From contig NZ_CP144555.1 in the NCBI RefSeq assembly GCF_036607905.1, positions 6,076,001 through 6,140,000 on the forward strand: a stretch of 64,000 nt of DNA, written 5' to 3'. This DNA comes from Streptomyces sp. SCSIO 75703. GTDB lineage: Bacteria; Actinomycetota; Actinomycetes; Streptomycetales; Streptomycetaceae. Position numbers and translations under genes: made by a program. This document shows, piece after piece, positions 20,188 to 29,259 of the stretch (its first letter is position 1; the number at the start of each line of letters is the position of its first letter). The notes beneath the pieces are model-generated. The model worked only from the letters and a program-made list of their open reading frames with translations, ran no database searches and was not told the DNA's origin.

Positions 20188-20595
20188 TCAGTCGTCGAGT
20201 GCGTGGCGGACGCGGCGAGACGGGCTGAACGTGTAGAGGTCGAGGATGTCGGGCGGTTCGGCGAGGCCGGGGCCGCCGTCCTTGACCCAGTCGGTGATGT
20301 CGGCAGCGGCGCCGGGGTCGTTGACCTGGCCGAGCCAGACCGGGCGTCCGCCTGCCTCGCGGCCTTCGGCGGAGGGCTGGATGACGATGACGTTGGCGCG
20401 CTCGCACGCGTCCAGGCAGTCGGCGCGCCGGACCATCGCGACTCCGGCGAGTCGGGTGCGCAGGTCGGTGAGCTGGGCTTCGTGGTCCAGGTGCGGCACC
20501 TCGGCCGGGGTGCCGCAGCAACAGCCGCGGCAGACGGTGACGGTGGGCCGGGCCGCCCCCCTCGCGGGGGCGGCCTTCCTGGTACGGCGGCTCAT
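20188..20595 (-). CDS. Thioredoxin-like [2Fe-2S] ferredoxin-domain protein
   Basis: A 135-residue protein. VTVCRGCCCGTP near residue 20 and ADCLDACERANVIVIQP near 60 supply the Cys ligands expected of a thioredoxin-fold [2Fe-2S] ferredoxin (as in NuoE-like or 'CobW-associated' ferredoxins). The C-terminus carries a WLGQV segment. It is encoded by overlap after the P1B-4 ATPase; such pairs occur in actinobacterial metal-efflux loci, and a role as metal/redox partner is an inference. Confidence 0.8.
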   Translation of the reverse strand: MSRRTRKAAPARGAARPTVTVCRGCCCGTPAEVPHLDHEAQLTDLRTRLAGVAMVRRADCLDACERANVIVIQPSAEGREAGGRPVWLGQVNDPGAAADITDWVKDGGPGLAEPPDILDLYTFSPSRRVRHALDD

Positions 20596-22583
20596 CGCGT
20601 GTCCTTCGCCGCGCGGACCCAGGCCGCGTCGCGCAGCAGACGCAACCCGTTGAGGCCGACGATGACGGTCGATCCCTCGTGCCCGAGAACACCGAGCGGC
20701 AGCGGCAGGTGGCCCACCAGGTCCCAGACCACCAGGCCGGAGATGAACACTCCGGCGATCACCAGGTTCTGCGTCACCAGGCGCCGGGCCGCCCGCGAGA
20801 GGGCGATCACGGTGGGGACGGTGGCGAGTTCGTCGCGGACGATGACCGCGTCGGCGGTCTCCAAGGCGAGGTCGGAGCCGGCGCGGCCCATGGCGATGCC
20901 GGTGTGGGCGGCGGCCAGGGCGGGCGCGTCGTTGACGCCGTCGCCGACGACCAGCACCTTGCGCCCCTGGGCCTCCAGGCTCCGTACGGCTTCGACCTTG
21001 TCCTGCGGCAGGAGACCGGCGTGGACCCGGGTGCCGGAGATGCCGGCCTCGGCGGCCAGGCGGGCGGCGGCGCGCGGGTTGTCGCCCGTCACGAGCATCG
21101 GAGCGTCGCCGGTCAGCGTGGTCAGGGCGGTGACGGTCGCGGTGGCATCGGGACGCAGCCGGTCGGCGACGCCCAGCACCCCGACCGGGACGCCGTCGCG
21201 CAGGACCAGGACGGCCGTGCGGCCACCGTCCTCGAGGCCGGCCGCGACCTCGGCGGCGCGGGCCGCGCCGTCGCGGCCGTCACCGTCGAGGAGGCGGGCC
21301 GGGGCGCCGACCCTGACCACGTGGCCGCCGACGGTGGCGGTGACACCGACGCCGGGGGCGGAAGTGAAGTCCCGCACGTCGGAGATGGCCAGGCCGCGGG
21401 CGCGGGTGGCGTTGACGACGGCGCGGGCGAGGGGGTGTTCGCTGGGGTGCTCGGCGGTGGCCGCCAGCGCCAGCAGGGCGTCCTCGGTCAGGCCGGAGCC
21501 GTCCAAGGGGCGGACGTCGGTGACGCGGGGGGTGCCCTCGGTCAGGGTGCCGGTCTTGTCGAGGGCGACCGCGTCGACCTGCCCGAGACGTTCCATCACC
21601 ACGGCGGACTTCACCAGGACGCCGTGACGTCCGGCGTTGGCGATCGCCGACAGCAGCGGCGGCATCGTCGCCAGGACCACCGCGCACGGCGAGGCCACGA
21701 TCATGAAGGTCATCGCCCGTAGCAGCGAGCCGGTCAGGTCTCCGCCGAACGCGAGGGGGACCAGGAATACCGCCAGGGTCGCGACGACCATGCCCAGGCT
21801 GTATCGCTGCTCGACCTTCTCGATGAACAGCTGGGTGGGCGCCTTGGTCTCGGAGGCTTCCTCGACCATGGCCACGATCCGGGCGATCACCGAGTCCGAG
21901 GCGTCCCGCTCGACCTTGACACGCAGGGCGCCGGTCCCGTTGAGGGTGCCGGCGAAGACCTCGTCCCCGGCCTCCTTCGCGACCGGCAGGGGCTCGCCGG
22001 TGATGGTGGCCTGGTCCACGTCGCCGGCCCCGGCAAGGACGCGGCCGTCGGCGCCGACTCGCTCACCGGGGCGGACCAGGATGGTGTCCCCGACCACCAG
22101 GTCCTCGGTCGGGACCGTCGACTCGCTCCCGTCGTCGGCCAGGCGGGTGGCGACGGTCGGGGCGAGGTCGAGCAGCCCCCGCACCGCGTCCTGGGTGCGA
22201 GCGGTGGCCAGGGCCTCCAGGGCGCCGGAGGTGGCGAAGATGACGATCAGCAGCGCACCGTCCATCACCTGCCCGATCGAGGCCGCGCCGATCGCGGCCA
22301 CGATCATCAGCAGGTCCACGTCCAGCGTCTTCTCGCGCAGCGCCGTCAGCCCTGCCCAGGCCGGTCCCCACCCGCCGGTGACGTAGGCGGCGGCGTACAA
22401 CGGCCCCCACGTCCAGGCGGGGGCGCCGGTCAACTGCAGTGGCAGTGCGATCAGGAACAGCACCAGCGCCGCGGCGGCCCAACGGGCCTCCGTCAGGGCG
22501 AACACCCGCGTACGGCGCTTCGGTGCCGTACGCGAAGCGGCCGGAGTGGCCCGTTCGGGCCGCTGGAGCAGGTCAGCAGGCAT
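20592..22583 (-). CDS. P1B-4-type heavy-metal efflux ATPase (Co/Fe/Ni/Zn group)
   Basis: A 663-residue P-type ATPase. Actuator TGEP (195-198), transport motif SPC (298-300) in place of the CPC of Cu/Zn pumps, phosphorylation site DKTGTLT (Asp342), ATP-binding HP in SEHPLARAV, and VGDGVNDAPAL hinge are all present. HEGSTVIVGLNGLRLL near the C-terminus is the HEG(G/S)T motif of P1B-4 pumps (CoaT, CtpD, CzcP). No N-terminal metal-binding domain is present. The ATG follows a weak GAAGGG. An ArsR-type dyad overlies the promoter; the divergent arsR gene is decayed. Confidence 0.93.
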   Translation of the reverse strand: MPADLLQRPERATPAASRTAPKRRTRVFALTEARWAAAALVLFLIALPLQLTGAPAWTWGPLYAAAYVTGGWGPAWAGLTALREKTLDVDLLMIVAAIGAASIGQVMDGALLIVIFATSGALEALATARTQDAVRGLLDLAPTVATRLADDGSESTVPTEDLVVGDTILVRPGERVGADGRVLAGAGDVDQATITGEPLPVAKEAGDEVFAGTLNGTGALRVKVERDASDSVIARIVAMVEEASETKAPTQLFIEKVEQRYSLGMVVATLAVFLVPLAFGGDLTGSLLRAMTFMIVASPCAVVLATMPPLLSAIANAGRHGVLVKSAVVMERLGQVDAVALDKTGTLTEGTPRVTDVRPLDGSGLTEDALLALAATAEHPSEHPLARAVVNATRARGLAISDVRDFTSAPGVGVTATVGGHVVRVGAPARLLDGDGRDGAARAAEVAAGLEDGGRTAVLVLRDGVPVGVLGVADRLRPDATATVTALTTLTGDAPMLVTGDNPRAAARLAAEAGISGTRVHAGLLPQDKVEAVRSLEAQGRKVLVVGDGVNDAPALAAAHTGIAMGRAGSDLALETADAVIVRDELATVPTVIALSRAARRLVTQNLVIAGVFISGLVVWDLVGHLPLPLGVLGHEGSTVIVGLNGLRLLRDAAWVRAAKDTR

Positions 22584-22626
22584 GACAAAGAACAACCCTT
22601 CGGGGCGGAGGCAGGGCGACGCATCC

Positions 22627-22656
22627 ACCTTACAGGAATACTTGAACAGGTCTTCA
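22627..22656 (-). promoter_or_regulatory. ArsR/SmtB-type operator and promoter of the metal ATPase
   Basis: On the minus strand, TGAAGA-CC-TGTTCA (22656-22643) is a near-perfect 12-2-12-like dyad typical of ArsR/SmtB metal sensors. It covers the -35 area 10 bases upstream of TAAGGT (22632-22627), a plausible -10. The ATPase start follows about 44 bases later. Confidence 0.6.
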
Positions 22657-22680
22657 TGTGTTGTGGGCGGGGCGGGCGGC

Positions 22681-23030
22681 ATGGGGCGCCGAACCGGCAA
22701 GAACAAGCCACCCCCGCGAGCGCCTGGACACGGCGGGGGCCACCGGCACGCGGCCACCCTCCAGGCCCTGGCCACCCCCTGGCGGCCGCACATCCGGGAC
22801 CCCCTCCAGGAACGCCCCTGCGCGGCCGGCGGCCCCGTCGAAGCCGTGGGCAGGGGGAACCTCCGCCTGCTCCCACCGGCTCCGCCTGCCGCGCGCTGTC
22901 GGGCTCGTCACCGGTGAACGCCGGGGCCGCGCCATCGTCGACGCCCTCTACGACAGCCACGTCGCCGAACTCCCGGAACACGCCCCCTCCCACGCCGAGC
23001 ACCCGCGCCGGGGCAGACGAAAGCGAGCCT
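22681..23030 (+). pseudogene. Decayed ArsR-family metal sensor gene
   Basis: Read from ATG 22681, the text ATLQALATP, then LQERPCA and VEAVG matches the first helices of ArsR regulators that partner P1B-4 ATPases. Near 22850-22862 homology shifts frame to SACSHRLRLPRAVGLVTGER, then RRGRAIVDALYDSHVAEL and HAEHPRRG, i.e. the recognition helix, wing and C-terminal helix. Many substitutions (ATPWRPHIRDP for the usual ATPSRLLIL) and loss of a nearby stop show decay. It diverges from the ATPase, the normal position for its sensor. Confidence 0.7.
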
Positions 23031-23122: not shown

Positions 23123-23512
23123 GTGTCATACCCGCAACCGCTCACGCCCGAGGGGGAACTCGCCGACGCGAAGAGGCGGCTGAGCCTCCCGCGTATCGTC
23201 GTGGTGTGCGGCTCCACCCGATGCGTGACCGAGATGAACGAGGCCGATCTCCAGGAGACCAAGGCCGGAAGGATTGTCGTCAAACCCTGTGTTGACATGA
23301 CATCGCCGCACGAACTCCGGTCCGATCAGGCCGAGGCTGAGGCGCTGAAGGGTCGACTTGGCGATCTGCACCGAGCGAAGATCCGGCTCGCTGATGAGGT
23401 GCTCGTAGTCGGCGACTACATCGGGGACAGCACCCGGGCCGAGATCGCCTACGCCCGGTCGCTGGGCAAGCCCGTGCGGTTCACGCATCCCGAAGTCGAC
23501 CCCGACGCCTGA
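23123..23512 (+). CDS. Nucleoside 2-deoxyribosyltransferase-like (DUF4406/YspA-type) protein
   Basis: A 129-residue protein with a GTG start and a perfect AGGAGG six bases upstream. VVVCGSTRC at about 30, KIRLADEVLVVGDYIGDSTRAEIAYARSLGKPV at 85-120 match the Rossmann-like nucleoside deoxyribosyltransferase/SLOG-related superfamily that binds nucleotides. A long open frame upstream in the same frame is only the arsR remnant. Function in this locus is unknown; related small proteins are often phage or defence associated. Confidence 0.75.
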   Translation: MSYPQPLTPEGELADAKRRLSLPRIVVVCGSTRCVTEMNEADLQETKAGRIVVKPCVDMTSPHELRSDQAEAEALKGRLGDLHRAKIRLADEVLVVGDYIGDSTRAEIAYARSLGKPVRFTHPEVDPDA

Positions 23513-24328: not shown

Positions 24329-24349
24329 GGTGAGAGGTCGCCTCTCACC
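24329..24349. terminator. Hairpin at the end of the rpsR2 transcript
   Basis: GGTGAGAGG (24329-24337), loop TCG, CCTCTCACC (24341-24349) is a perfect 9-bp stem that overlaps the rpsR2 stop codon and ends the minus-strand zinc-stress transcript. Confidence 0.65.
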
Positions 24350-24581
24350 GGTTCGGGTACGGGAGCAGCGCCATCTCACGGGCGTTCTTGATCGCCGCGG
24401 CGAGCTGTCGTTGCTGCTGGGCCGTGACGCGGGTGACGCGGCGGCTGCGGATCTTGCCGCGGTCGGAGAGGAACTTCCGCAGCAGGTCGGTGTTCTTGTA
24501 GTCGATGTAGGTGATCCCGGCCGCGTCCAGCGGGTTGGGGCGGGACTTCAGCGGCTTGCGGGGGCCTTGACGGGGGGCCAT
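24345..24581 (-). CDS. rpsR: 30S ribosomal protein S18, zinc-independent paralogue
   Basis: A 78-residue S18. The core ([18 protein letters not shown], then [27 protein letters not shown]) is canonical. No Cys residues are present, so this is the C-minus form used when zinc is scarce. AGAAGGAG precedes the ATG. Last gene of the rpmG2-rpmE2-cobW-like-rpsR2 transcript that starts at the Zur-like box near 26.25 kb. Confidence 0.95.
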
Positions 24582-24616
24582 GGTGCTCCTTCTGTGTGGG
24601 GCGGATGCGGACGGTT

Positions 24617-25771
24617 CTACGCGGTCGGCTCGAGGAGGGAGTCGAACGCGGCCGGGAGTTGTTTCCAGGCGTCGGGGCCGGCGGTGTACTCGGCGTCGGT
24701 GAGGAGGCAGGACTCCAGCACGCGCGCGAGCCCGTCGCGGTCCAGGCCGGGTGAGGTGAAGACGAGGTGCTGGCAGCGGTCCCCGTGTTCGGGGTGCCAG
24801 TCCATCGCGGCGGCCGCTCGGCGTACGGGCGGGACCATCTCCCAGGCGGCGTCCGGCAGGGAGGCGAGCCACGGGCCGGCGCTCTCCACGCACAGGGCTC
24901 CGCCCGCGGCGTCCCAGGCGAGCAGGGTGTCGGGGCGGTCGGCGAGCCAGAACCGTCCGCGGCTGCGGGCCGCGGCGCAGCAGAGGTCTTCCAGCGCCTG
25001 GTAGAGGCGTTCGGGATGGAACGGGCGGTGCCGGCGCCAGACGAAGGTGGTGACGCCCGCCTCGTCGGCTTCCTGGGGGAGCAGCGCACAGGCGGGGTGC
25101 TGGGCCGCGGCGGCCGCTTCGGCGTCGAAGCCGGCGAAGGCCAGCCGGGCGAGTTCCGCGGAGTCGGCGCTCACCTGCCGGGCGACGGGGTGGAGTTGGC
25201 TGAGGAGTGCCCGGTCCTCGTCGTCGGCGTCCTCGCTCTCCACGACGGCGAGGACGGGGGCGTACTCCACTTGCCTGGCCCAGGTGTCGCCGACCGTGCG
25301 CTGGTCGGTGGCTGCCGCCGCGAGGCCCGCCTCGGCCAGGTCGTCGCCGTTGCCGAGGCAGGGGAGCACGAGAGCGGGGTCCACCGCCGTGATCACGTTG
25401 GTGAGCCGCACCGCGTCGCCGCCGTGGTGGACGACGACCTCGGCCATCCCCTTGGGTTCCACGGAGTCCCACAGCTCGACGACGGCGAGCCGGGTGAGGC
25501 CGGCGTCGGCGAGTCGTTCCAGCTCGGGGACCAGGTCCTCGCGCAGCGCACAGCACGCGCAGTCGTTGACCAGCGGGGCGCCGCACCGGGACAGCTCGCC
25601 CGAAGCGTCGCGCACCTGGCGCAGGACGGTGCCGTCGGCCGCCGTGGACAGGTCGTGATGGAGGGCGACGCTGCCGGGTACCAGGCGCAGGAGGTGCTCC
25701 ACGACCTCGCGGCGTGCCTCGGCGTGGAGCCCGGCGACGATGACGACGGGCAGTCCGGTCTCGTCCCGCAT
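24617..25771 (-). CDS. COG0523 (CobW-like) protein with lost GTP-binding motifs
   Basis: A 384-residue COG0523 homologue. The metal site CxCC is kept ([12 protein letters not shown], about residue 70), and the C-terminal CobW_C domain ([18 protein letters not shown], then WLADRP) is intact. The P-loop reads [20 protein letters not shown] instead of GFLGAGKTT; the ESSGxxEP switch is ELWDSVEP, and the NKxD base-recognition motif is replaced by [11 protein letters not shown] binding is therefore unlikely. It overlaps rpmE2 (TGATG) and lies among zinc-independent ribosomal genes, suggesting a zinc-handling or zinc-binding role without GTPase activity (inference). Confidence 0.88.
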
Positions 25772-26025
25772 CAGTGGGCTCCGCGCCGACCGTACCGGCG
25801 CTCGAAGCGCTCGACCCGCCCGGCGGTGTCCAGGACCCTGGCGGTCCCCGTGTAGAAGGGGTGGCTGACGTTCGAGATCTCGACGTCGACCACCGGGTAG
25901 GTGTTGCCGTCCTCCCACTCGATCGTCTTCTCACTGGTCATGGTGGAGCGGGTGAGGAACGCGTAGTTCGCGGCTCGGTCGCGGAAGACGACGGGACCGT
26001 ACGCGGGGTGGATTCCGGGTTTCAT
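25771..26025 (-). CDS. rpmE2: 50S ribosomal protein L31 type B
   Basis: An 84-residue type B L31: [46 protein letters not shown]. The zinc-ribbon Cys of type A are absent. Known Streptomyces and Bacillus counterparts are Zur-repressed and replace the zinc-containing L31 to free zinc. Second gene of the minus-strand transcript, 46 bases after rpmG2. Confidence 0.95.
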
Positions 26026-26071
26026 GGGGCGTCCTTGAGGTCGGGGGCGGCGGAGGGGGAGTGGTGGGAGG

Positions 26072-26236
26072 TCAGCGTTCTTCGCGGAAGGCGACGTGGC
26101 GCCGGGCGACCGGGTCGTACTTGCGCAGCACCAGGCGGTCGGGGTCGTTGCGGCGGTTCTTGCGGGTGACGTACGTGTAGCCGGTTCCCGCCGTAGAGCG
26201 GAGCTTGATGATCGGGCGTACCTCGTTGCGTGCCAT
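26072..26236 (-). CDS. rpmG: 50S ribosomal protein L33, zinc-independent paralogue
   Basis: A 54-residue L33: [40 protein letters not shown], ending FREER. No Cys, so C-minus. The gene is short and easily missed. No Shine-Dalgarno sequence precedes the ATG; TATACT lies only seven bases upstream, so translation is probably leaderless. First gene of the transcript, directly at the Zur-like box. Confidence 0.93.
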
Positions 26237-26243
26237 GAGGGGT

Positions 26244-26264
26244 AGTATATGGGAATGGTTTCCA
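26244..26264. promoter_or_regulatory. Divergent promoter with Zur-like box
   Basis: TGGGAATGGTTTCCA (26250-26264) is a TGGnAAnnnTTnCCA dyad matching the shape of actinobacterial Zur sites. On the minus strand it sits between a -35-like TTTGGT/TTGGTA and -10 TATACT (26249-26244) of rpmG2. The plus-strand rpmB2 starts 40 bases away, so one site can control both directions. Confidence 0.75.
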
Positions 26265-26304
26265 TTACCAAAAACTAGCCGTCCGACGAGAGGTAGGTAG
26301 GACC

Positions 26305-26541
26305 TTGTCCGCCCACTGCCAACTGACCGGAGCCCGGCCGGGCTTCGGCAACGCCATCTCCCACTCGCATCGGCGCACTTCGCGCCGCTTCGACCCCAAC
26401 ATCCAGCGCAAGCGCTACTGGCTGCCCAGCGAGGGGCGACATGTCCGCCTGACGCTCAGCGCGAGGGCGATCAAGACTGTCGACAGCATCGGCATCGAGG
26501 CCGCCGTGGCCCGTATCCGCGCCCGAGGGGGCAAGGTCTGA
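26305..26541 (+). CDS. rpmB: 50S ribosomal protein L28, zinc-independent paralogue
   Basis: A 78-residue L28 with a TTG start after [28 protein letters not shown], then [20 protein letters not shown] and the C-terminal [13 protein letters not shown] are typical. Only one Cys remains of the zinc ribbon (C-minus form). Divergent from rpmG2 over the shared Zur-like box and coupled to rpsN2 by TGATG. Confidence 0.95.
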
Positions 26542-26846
26542 TGGCCAAGAAGAGCAAGATCGCCCAGAACGAGAAGCGCAAGGCGACCGTCGAGCGGTAC
26601 GCGACCCGCCGTGCGGAGCTGAAGGAGATCATCCGCCGGCCGTCCTCCACCGACGCCGAACGCCAGGCCGCGAGGGAAGAACTGCGGCGCCAGCCCCGCG
26701 ACGCGAGCGCCACCCGGGTGCGCAACCGGGACAGCGTGGACGGACGGCCGCGCGGCCACCTGCGGAAGTTCGGCCTGTCACGGGTCCGCCTGCGCGAGCA
26801 GGCCCACGCCGGCTTCCTGCCCGGGGTCACCAAGTCCTCCTGGTAG
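26541..26846 (+). CDS. rpsN: 30S ribosomal protein S14, zinc-independent paralogue
   Basis: A 101-residue long-form S14 ([20 protein letters not shown], then [12 protein letters not shown] and [21 protein letters not shown]). The CxxC zinc site of short S14 is absent. Its ATG overlaps the rpmB2 stop, and a strong hairpin follows. Confidence 0.95.
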
Positions 26847-26874
26847 CCGCGCCGCTCGCACCACGAGCGGAGAA

Positions 26875-26906
26875 TCCGGCCGTGACTCGGGGGAGTCACG
26901 GCCGGA
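26875..26906. terminator. Bidirectional terminator after rpsN2
   Basis: TCCGGCCGTGACTC (26875-26888), loop GGGG, GAGTCACGGCCGGA (26893-26906): a perfect 14-bp stem. It lies between convergent rpsN2 and the methyltransferase gene and can end both. Confidence 0.85.
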
Positions 26907-26932
26907 ACCGGCGCGGAGGGGGCCTGCGGACG

Positions 26933-27763
26933 TCAGGGCAGGCGCAGGAGGCTGAGCCGGTAGCCCTCGGCCTGGGGGAGCCGCTGCGCGGCCAGGGCGG
27001 ACACCATCTGCCGGCAGGGGAGCGGCAACTGGGCCACCAGCGGTTCGGGAAGGCTGGTGAGGGTGTGTGACGCCAGGACGCGCGAACCCGGCCGCCAGTC
27101 GGCCAGTCGGGCCGGATCAGGGCAGTGCCAGTGCATACGGGCCTCGACCCTGCCGAGGGCGTCGTGCTGTTCCTGGGTGTCGAAGAAGCCGGGGCCGGCG
27201 GTGTCCAGGGCCAGCAGGGCGCCCGGGAAGCGGTCGGCGAGGAGGTCGACGACCCTTCGCACGTCGGGTTCGTGCAGGAACGGCAGTACGGCCTCCGCGA
27301 CGAACAGGCAGGGCCCGGTGGAGCGCGAGGCCACCTTCGCGACCCACGCCTCGTCCGTCACCGAAGCGGCGATCATCGTCCGCCGGGGGCTGTCCGTGAA
27401 GAAGTTCCGGCGCAGGGCGATCACGTCGGGCAGGTCGAGGCCGAACCACCGGGCGCGGCCGTTGTCGACCCGTTCGTGACGTGTGTTGAGTCCGGTGCCG
27501 ATCTCGACCACGGTGGCGTCGGGATGCGCGGACAGGAAGTCCGCCACCCACCGGTCGAAGAGGAGGGTGCGCAACAGCGCGCCGGTGAGGGACGGGAGGC
27601 CGTCGAAGCGTGCGAACTCGTAGTCGATCGAGGCGGCGATCTCTTCGGCCCGCGCATCCCTCAGAAGTGCGTGTTCCTTGCGGTTTTCCACCGCGCGGGC
27701 GTACAGCGGTATGAGGAGCGTCTCCTGTACCGCCCCCAGGCGCGGCTTCTTCCTGTCGTCCAT
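26933..27763 (-). CDS. SAM-dependent methyltransferase, LCMT/PPM1-type
   Basis: A 276-residue class I methyltransferase. ATVVEIGTGLNTRHERVDNG is the SAM-binding motif I of the leucine-carboxyl-methyltransferase-like group (O-methyltransferases acting on polyketides or unknown acids), followed by WFGLDLPDVIALRRNFF and a helical cap. The ATG at 27763 has GGAGAGG eight bases upstream; an in-frame GTG 18 bases earlier lacks a site. It stands alone within the zinc-stress island, and no link to zinc is evident. Confidence 0.85.
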   Translation of the reverse strand: MDDRKKPRLGAVQETLLIPLYARAVENRKEHALLRDARAEEIAASIDYEFARFDGLPSLTGALLRTLLFDRWVADFLSAHPDATVVEIGTGLNTRHERVDNGRARWFGLDLPDVIALRRNFFTDSPRRTMIAASVTDEAWVAKVASRSTGPCLFVAEAVLPFLHEPDVRRVVDLLADRFPGALLALDTAGPGFFDTQEQHDALGRVEARMHWHCPDPARLADWRPGSRVLASHTLTSLPEPLVAQLPLPCRQMVSALAAQRLPQAEGYRLSLLRLP

Positions 27764-27837
27764 GAGCGGCCTCTCCGGCACAGGTGTGTACCGGGCCGGA
27801 CGGTGCCGTGGCTGCGACCACCGCCCGGCCCGGAGTC

Positions 27838-29025
27838 TCAGTGCCCCGTCACGGTGGTGAGGGGGTCGTGCTCGTGCGCGCAGCTCTCGTCGAAGCCGTA
27901 GGTGTCCCAGGCGGGGAAGGGGTCGGAAGCGGGCAGGGCTTCGCCGTCCCGCATGAGGCAGCCGGTCAGGGCGGCCCGGAGCGGCTCCGCGTCCAGTCGC
28001 GTTCCGATGAAGACGAGCTCCTGCGCGAAAGGGCTGTCGGTGTCACGAGCGGAGGAAGGCTCGAAGCGCGCCACCGAACCGGCCTGCGACCACAGCCCCG
28101 TCACACGGGGCCGGCTGGCGAGCGTGAAGAAGCCTTTGGACCTGAGGACCTGCCCGTAGGCTCCGCTGTCCAGTGCCTGCGTCACGAACGTCCACAACCG
28201 CCCGGGATGAAAGGGCGTCGTGGAGCGGAAGACGGTCGAGGAGATGCCGTACTCCTGCGTCTCGGGGACGTGGTCGCCGTTGAGTTCTCTGACCCACCCC
28301 GGGGCCTGCTGCGCGCGCTCCAGGTCGAAGCGGCCGGTACCCAGGACGGTGCCGGCAGGCACGCGGCCTCGTACCGCCGGCACCACGCGTGCGGCGGGGT
28401 TGAGCCGTGCCAAGGCGGCCCTCAGGTGGTCGGCGGACGCGGAGTCGACGAGGTCGAGCTTGTTGAGCACGATGACGTCGGCGAATTCGATCTGGTCCAT
28501 CAGCAGGTCGCTGACCGTGCGTTCGTCGTCCTCGTACTGGTCCAGGCCCCGTTCGGCCAGTTCGTCGCCTCCGGCCAGTTCGGGCAGGAAGTTGGCGGCG
28601 TCCACGACCGTGACCATCGTGTCCAGCCGGGCCAGGTCGTCGAGGGTGGCGCCGTCGTCACGGGCGAAGGCGAAGGTGGCGGCCACCGGCATGGGCTCGG
28701 AGATGCCGGAGGACTCGATGAGGAGGTAGTCGAAGCGCCCCTCGCGCGCCAGCCGGTCCACCTCTTCCAGCAGGTCGTCGCGCAGGGTGCAGCAGATGCA
28801 CCCGTTGGTCATCTCGACCAGGCGTTCCTCGGTGCGGGACAGGGCGGCCTCGCCGCCGCGCACGAGGGCGGCGTCGATGTTGACCTCGCTCATGTCGTTG
28901 ACGATGACGGCGACCCGCAGGCCCTCGCGGTTGGTGAGGACGTGGTTGAGCAGGGTGGTCTTCCCGGCACCGAGAAAGCCCGACAGGACGGTGACGGGAA
29001 GGCGCGGCGAGGGGGCGTCGGACAT
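27838..29025 (-). CDS. COG0523 (CobW/ZigA-like) GTPase, metallochaperone
   Basis: A 395-residue GTPase with all motifs: P-loop GFLGAGKTT (about 16-24), GCICC metal site, [12 protein letters not shown], and a CobW_C domain ending in a His-rich tail ([14 protein letters not shown]). Family members deliver zinc or other metals and are induced by zinc starvation through Zur. It follows rpmF2 by six bases, under a second Zur-like box. Compare the GTP-dead paralogue at 24.6-25.8 kb. Confidence 0.92.
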
Positions 29026-29244: not shown

Positions 29245-29259
29245 TGAAAATGGATGTCA
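29245..29259. promoter_or_regulatory. Zur-like box upstream of rpmF2
   Basis: TGAAAATGGATGTCA (29245-29259) resembles the Streptomyces Zur site TGaaAAtgaTTttCA with three mismatches in the right arm. It is 43 bases upstream of rpmF2, next to a minus-strand -10-like TATCGT. Confidence 0.65.

Follow-up and report, generated by a model that had tools for sequence, protein, structure and literature searches.

An intact metal-export pump and an intact NmtR-type regulator beside each other's gene remnants, 0.7 Mb apart, in Streptomyces sp. SCSIO 75703

Here, we report that the genome of Streptomyces sp. SCSIO 75703 holds two copies of a divergent nmtR-pump module that have decayed in complementary ways. 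In the stretch of DNA analysed (the window; 64,000 nucleotides, G000:C1:6076001-6140000 of a one-contig 6.89 Mb genome), the pump, its promoter and the operator are retained and the regulator gene is a ruin; in the second copy it is the regulator and its matching operator that are constrained and the pump that is a decaying stub. Each copy has lost the opposite half, so that one working repressor is left far from one working pump. We put the probability that the distant NmtR represses the window pump in trans at roughly 0.7, judging from sequence comparison.

Results

The regulator gene beside the pump is a pseudogene

The gene at 22681-23014 (plus strand) is a pseudogene of an NmtR-type ArsR/SmtB repressor, in which the start codon is kept and the frame is broken by three indels and accompanied by many missense changes. 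The sequence-only reading had noticed ArsR-like segments in two frames with many changes and had called the gene wrecked, and this is borne out: tblastn with an intact homologue as query matches its residues 41-74 at 67% identity and residues 78-128 at 66%, in different frames, and a search of the genome with the regulator matches the dead locus at E 4.7e-16. The span proposed, 22627-23030, also fits, as 22627 falls on the inferred -10 hexamer of the pump and the regulator homology ends near 23014. The label ArsR is right for an ArsR/SmtB gene; as a generic label, it is refined here to NmtR type. The same reading had asked for an alignment to intact regulator-pump pairs of related strains. In the eight close homologues used (L175-L179 and L032-L034) the divergent regulator is intact throughout, and the window copy, 81.3-83.9% identical to them in DNA, is broken by indels of -5, -1 and +1. 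Over 22681-23000, 38 of the 265 sites that are invariant in all eight are changed in the window, i.e., 12/99, 22/102 and 4/64 at codon positions 1, 2 and 3, respectively. The same count run on each relative gives 0-3 changes at positions 1 and 2 (201-204 sites); for L178 and L179 the count is lowered by the near-identity of these two relatives. The N-terminus of the dead copy reads MGRR, with His3 replaced. Its promoter has gone as well: 4 of the 14 invariant sites between operator and start codon are changed, and all four lie in the former -10 hexamer of the regulator gene (22668-22673, plus strand), which is TAGGAT in close relatives. Pfam finds no family in the three ORFs overlapping 22681-23014, and no open frame runs through both the helix-turn-helix and the metal-site helix.

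Indels are common errors in GC-rich DNA, and the frame breaks could in principle come from sequencing or assembly, with a linked repressor that still works. However, indel errors cannot account for 38 substitutions among 265 invariant sites, most of these substitutions being at codon positions 1 and 2, where close relatives show 0-3; we reject sequencing error as the cause of the broken frame and give a working linked gene on this account hardly any credence. A linked repressor made by programmed frameshifting was likewise rejected, as the three indels, the many prolines that fall in helices and the loss of His3 and the promoter appear to speak against it. Open frames of 175, 284 and 123 aa that lie across the ruin were considered as new genes and set aside, with no Pfam match at E 0.1; long open frames are common in 72% GC DNA. 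One of them continues into a small gene at 23123-23512 that adjoins the ruin and has sub-threshold matches only, to DUF7768 and DUF4406.

The pump is intact and keeps its promoter and operator

The sequence-only reading had taken the pump (20592-22583, minus strand, 663 aa) for a P1B-4 ATPase, and we agree. Its frame and the P-type ATPase core are complete (Pfam E1-E2_ATPase at 1.2e-49 and Hydrolase at 3.8e-29; DKTGT present), and the closest PDB chain is 7qbz (E 7.3e-100). It carries ASPCAVV and HEGST, i.e., the P1B-4 signature as SPC plus HEG(S/G)T is defined in PMC7689651, and the NCBIfam assignment reaches the heavy-metal and cadmium-family level only. By its motifs and core, we class it as a P1B-4 ATPase of the CoaT/CtpD/CtpJ type, and Co/Ni export is predicted from the family. 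Compared with 14 relatives, its dN/dS is 0.20-0.36. At sites invariant in seven relatives, 18/540, 4/587 and 18/351 are changed at codon positions 1, 2 and 3, a pattern opposite to that of the dead regulator gene; on these measures, the window pump is intact and under purifying selection. Among the eight E1-E2 ATPase matches of the genome it is the only one with SPC plus HEGST, and by these motifs the genome has one P1B-4 pump. A small ORF (20188-20595, minus strand, 135 aa) overlaps the 3' end of the pump gene, with which it probably forms one transcript; it has no match in Pfam or NCBIfam at the limits used, and plasmid pFRL5 has a hypothetical gene at the equivalent position.

The operator dyad of the ATPase had been claimed to survive, and it is indeed real and kept: TGAACAGGTCTTCA (TGAAGACCTGTTCA in pump direction) lies at 22643-22656 with 14 of 14 bases as in the eight relatives. 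It sits in the inferred pump promoter (22627-22656, minus strand), which we read from sequence as a -35-like TGAAGA at 22651-22656, within the operator, an 18-base spacer and a -10-like TAAGGT at 22627-22632. TGAACAGGTCTTCA is the sole match within the window when up to 3 mismatches are allowed. By itself the dyad is weak evidence, because one or more matches of this inexact kind also appear in 27 of 100 shuffles. None of the 25 invariant sites in promoter plus operator (22626-22656) is changed, against 34/201 in the dead gene (p 0.018); for the 14-base operator taken alone the comparison is 0/14 against 34/201 (p 0.13). Since the operator overlaps the pump promoter, the statistical case for selection on the operator is modest, and promoter constraint may explain part of its retention.

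An intact NmtR lies beside a pump stub 0.7 Mb away

Searches of the same genome with the regulator and with the region found a second module at G000:C1:6799537-6799917 (L061:6538-6918, minus strand), about 0.7 Mb from the window and 86 kb from the contig end. Its regulator is intact, with 126 aa counted from MGHG. The ArsR winged-helix domain is recognised over cut-off by HTH_5 (E 7.6e-13), NCBIfam HTH_metalloreg scores 87.4 bits against a cut-off of 55, and in phmmer the best solved relative is NmtR of Mycobacterium tuberculosis (2lkp, E 7e-42). Aligned to 2lkp, the protein has the N-terminal Gly-His (MGH) and DxH-(10)-HxxH, i.e., at matching places the ligands that PMC7055735 gives for NmtR: the N-terminal amine, His3, Asp91, His93, His104 and His107. 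By domain and ligands, we consider it an NmtR-type ArsR/SmtB repressor, for which metal-triggered release from DNA is predicted from the family. Divergent linkage to the ATPase under control, a trait that defines the module rather than the protein, is lacking here. What adjoins it is the divergent N-terminal stub of such an ATPase, about 84 codons long (L061:7013-7258), which runs into a DUF981 gene with transposase-like ORFs beyond (by reading). In the relatives G286 and G209 an intact pump occupies this position.

Counted against seven relatives of the second module, the regulator has 2/229 invariant sites changed, its promoter and operator 0/26 and the pump stub 24/145; the dN/dS of the regulator is 0.065-0.231 against 23 homologues. 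Set beside the counts for the window pump and the dead gene, these figures indicate that each module consists of a constrained half and a decaying half, and that the halves are opposite. The two ruins also change in the same direction. Changes in the regulator ruin affect 22 of 77 invariant A/T sites, all of them to G/C, and 16 of 188 G/C sites, 7 of these to A/T; in the pump stub (L061:7013-7237), 12 of 37 A/T sites are changed versus 12 of 108 G/C sites. This drift to G+C suggests GC-biased fixation or mutation outside coding constraint. In a tree of NmtR proteins, whose deep branches have low support, the second-copy regulator groups with those of G286 and G209 (support 0.92). The regulators from intact relatives of the window locus belong to the other group, and the node at which both groups meet has a support of only 0.28; as the groups are separate, the two modules are not a recent tandem copy.

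The surviving repressor has reasons to bind the window operator

In the 6.89 Mb genome, TGAAGANCTGTTCA has exactly two matches, one per module, where about 0.012 are expected at 72% GC; a single central base (C/G) distinguishes the operators of the two modules. Exactly the variant of the window, TGAAGACCTGTTCA, is present in five relatives of the second module (L184-L188). The segment GMEASACSHQLRLLRNLGLVTGER, which by analogy would be the recognition-helix region, is identical in the second-copy NmtR and in L176, an intact relative of the dead gene. The shared operator, the shared GMEASACSHQLRLLRNLGLVTGER and the variant in L184-L188 are all reasons to expect cross-binding between the modules. 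A relaxed search with TGAAGANCTGTTCA (up to 2 mismatches) gives 61 genome matches versus 20 for the reversed control. There are three one-mismatch sites, one in a long ORF, one in a ribosomal-protein operon and one between genes (L092), and the same regulator may have a third genomic target among them. The L092 site (around 1501-1514) is a nearly palindromic relative of the operator, TGAAGAACTCTTCA, with a response-regulator-like ORF downstream (by reading).

The sequence-only reading had left two options, a constitutive pump or control by an unlinked paralogue. The second is now the better one, because an intact paralogue with the same operator exists and has lost the pump beside it. A constitutive pump, whose operator remains only since the promoter overlaps it, would agree with the destruction of the linked nmtR and its -10 hexamer, with the non-significant conservation of the operator alone and with the -35-like hexamer inside the dyad. 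Yet the same genome encodes an intact NmtR that is closely similar, is under strong constraint and has kept both its promoter and a matching operator, and ArsR paralogues of duplicated modules cross-repress in Pseudomonas putida as described in PMC7994332; we regard constitutive expression as unlikely, though as the main rival.

Control of the pump by another regulator, i.e., another ArsR or a zinc-type protein, was also weighed. The genome has 18 HTH_5 matches, and the 24345-29025 cluster adjoining the pump contains genes for ribosomal proteins S18, L33, L28 and S14, for two CobW-type GTPases and, by reading, an ORF resembling L31; this cluster looks like a zinc-starvation set. Against this, the dyad in the pump promoter is that of the NmtR module and is unchanged, and a guessed zinc-type palindrome has no site at the pump (three rows only: 29245 on both strands, and 51740). 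Moreover, seven further ArsR homologues were inspected, and in five of them the ligand pattern of NmtR, i.e., both MGHG and the DxH-H motif, is absent; the frames of L076 and L078 are unreadable. Such control seems quite improbable to us. The guessed palindrome has a one-mismatch match at 29245-29259.

Pump loci in other genomes

The pump search gave a match in 123 of 199 genomes. The survey comprised the best 103 pump-match rows (E up to 1.6e-255); the lower rows outside it are split, partial or about 40-45% identical. An intact linked divergent nmtR is present at 90 of these loci, none lies within 900 bases at 11, and one contig is too short; the window's nmtR is the only broken linked one among the 103. 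A second set of 80 named loci, which partly overlaps the first, has 74 intact and 6 without. The pumps of G026 and G092 have an internal stop and were kept in the survey, where only the regulator was classified. MGHG is found in 86/90 linked homologues and DxH(10)HxxH in 90/90. The exact operator motif occurs in 26/90 linked pump promoters (21 are at 4 mismatches and one at 6), i.e., on this count it is lineage-specific.

Among the 11 genomes that lack a linked nmtR, ten (the eleventh being G196) proved to encode an NmtR elsewhere. Nine of the ten have ATGAA/TTCAT half-sites at the unlinked nmtR and at the pump promoter (NmtR loci L159-L163, L165-L167 and L171; pump loci L008, L023, L102-L105, L111, L119 and L122). 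The tenth, G028, has the window-type dyad at both nmtR and pump, on separate contigs of a draft. Given these 10 of 11 genomes, a pump under an unlinked NmtR is probably not unique to the present strain; the state with two ruins was found once, here. Ada/Ogt-like DNA-repair ORFs stand beside the unlinked NmtR in the two loci read (L159 and L160). On contig C10 (L065, L201), G193 encodes an NmtR next to a similar dyad, and the L065 stretch contains no pump match; G193 also carries a complete module on contig C17.

Discussion

The best explanation we can offer starts from an ancestor that would have had two copies of the divergent nmtR-pump unit, in which NmtR, an ArsR/SmtB repressor, would come off DNA upon Ni(II)/Co(II) and the P1B-4 ATPase would export the metal. 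In the window copy, the repressor gene and its promoter would have decayed while the pump, its promoter and the operator remained; in the copy near the chromosome end, the repressor, its promoter and its operator would have remained and the pump would have been reduced to a decaying stub. The single intact NmtR would then act on its own operator and, in trans, on the window operator, where it would block the pump promoter until loaded with Ni or Co, and the metal would free both sites. Trans binding, repression and metal induction are thus what we infer, and the metals are taken from the NmtR family. That reciprocal pseudogenisation made a trans circuit of two loci out of what had been a self-contained divergon, in which selection keeps the pump operator, the distant repressor and the operator of the latter while the redundant halves decay, is the history towards which we lean, with somewhat less assurance than for repression in trans itself. 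The second copy may also simply be mid-decay. The module is matched by 14 plasmid records, not all of them from Streptomyces, and we infer that plasmid carriage in Streptomyces could have been the route for the second copy.

All parts belong to known families. In the NmtR/nmtA system of M. tuberculosis, an ArsR-SmtB repressor that senses Ni(II)/Co(II) controls a P1-type ATPase. The likeness to it lies in the match of the second-copy protein to 2lkp with the ligands at matching places, and in PMC7689651 the partner of the NmtR family is a Co/Ni-exporting P1-type ATPase; the difference is that the repressor and the pump stand here at two loci separated by 0.7 Mb, where each has the remains of its partner as a neighbour. 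The linked Streptomyces divergons have the same genes, the same divergent layout and the dyad in 90/103 and 74/80 loci, whereas the window repressor is a pseudogene. The naturally unlinked Streptomyces loci (11/103 and 6/80) likewise keep the dyad and have an intact NmtR elsewhere; they differ in that tblastn finds no ruin of a linked repressor there, and in that the dyad of the nine genomes has another centre. In P. putida, the paralogous repressors ArsR1 and ArsR2 of duplicated ars clusters act on each other's promoters according to PMC7994332, but both are intact there and the system concerns arsenic rather than Ni/Co. A literature search, in a library with only a minority of the subscription papers, found no description of an NmtR-pump pair from Streptomyces whose repressor is dead or unlinked, and as far as this search shows the split arrangement with both ruins is new.

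Before a pump next to a dead repressor is called constitutive, the rest of the genome should be checked. If the trans circuit holds, the present strain would offer a natural case of a local repressor-pump unit becoming a trans-acting circuit by duplication followed by the loss of opposite halves, one in which the order of events can be dated because both ruins are still readable.
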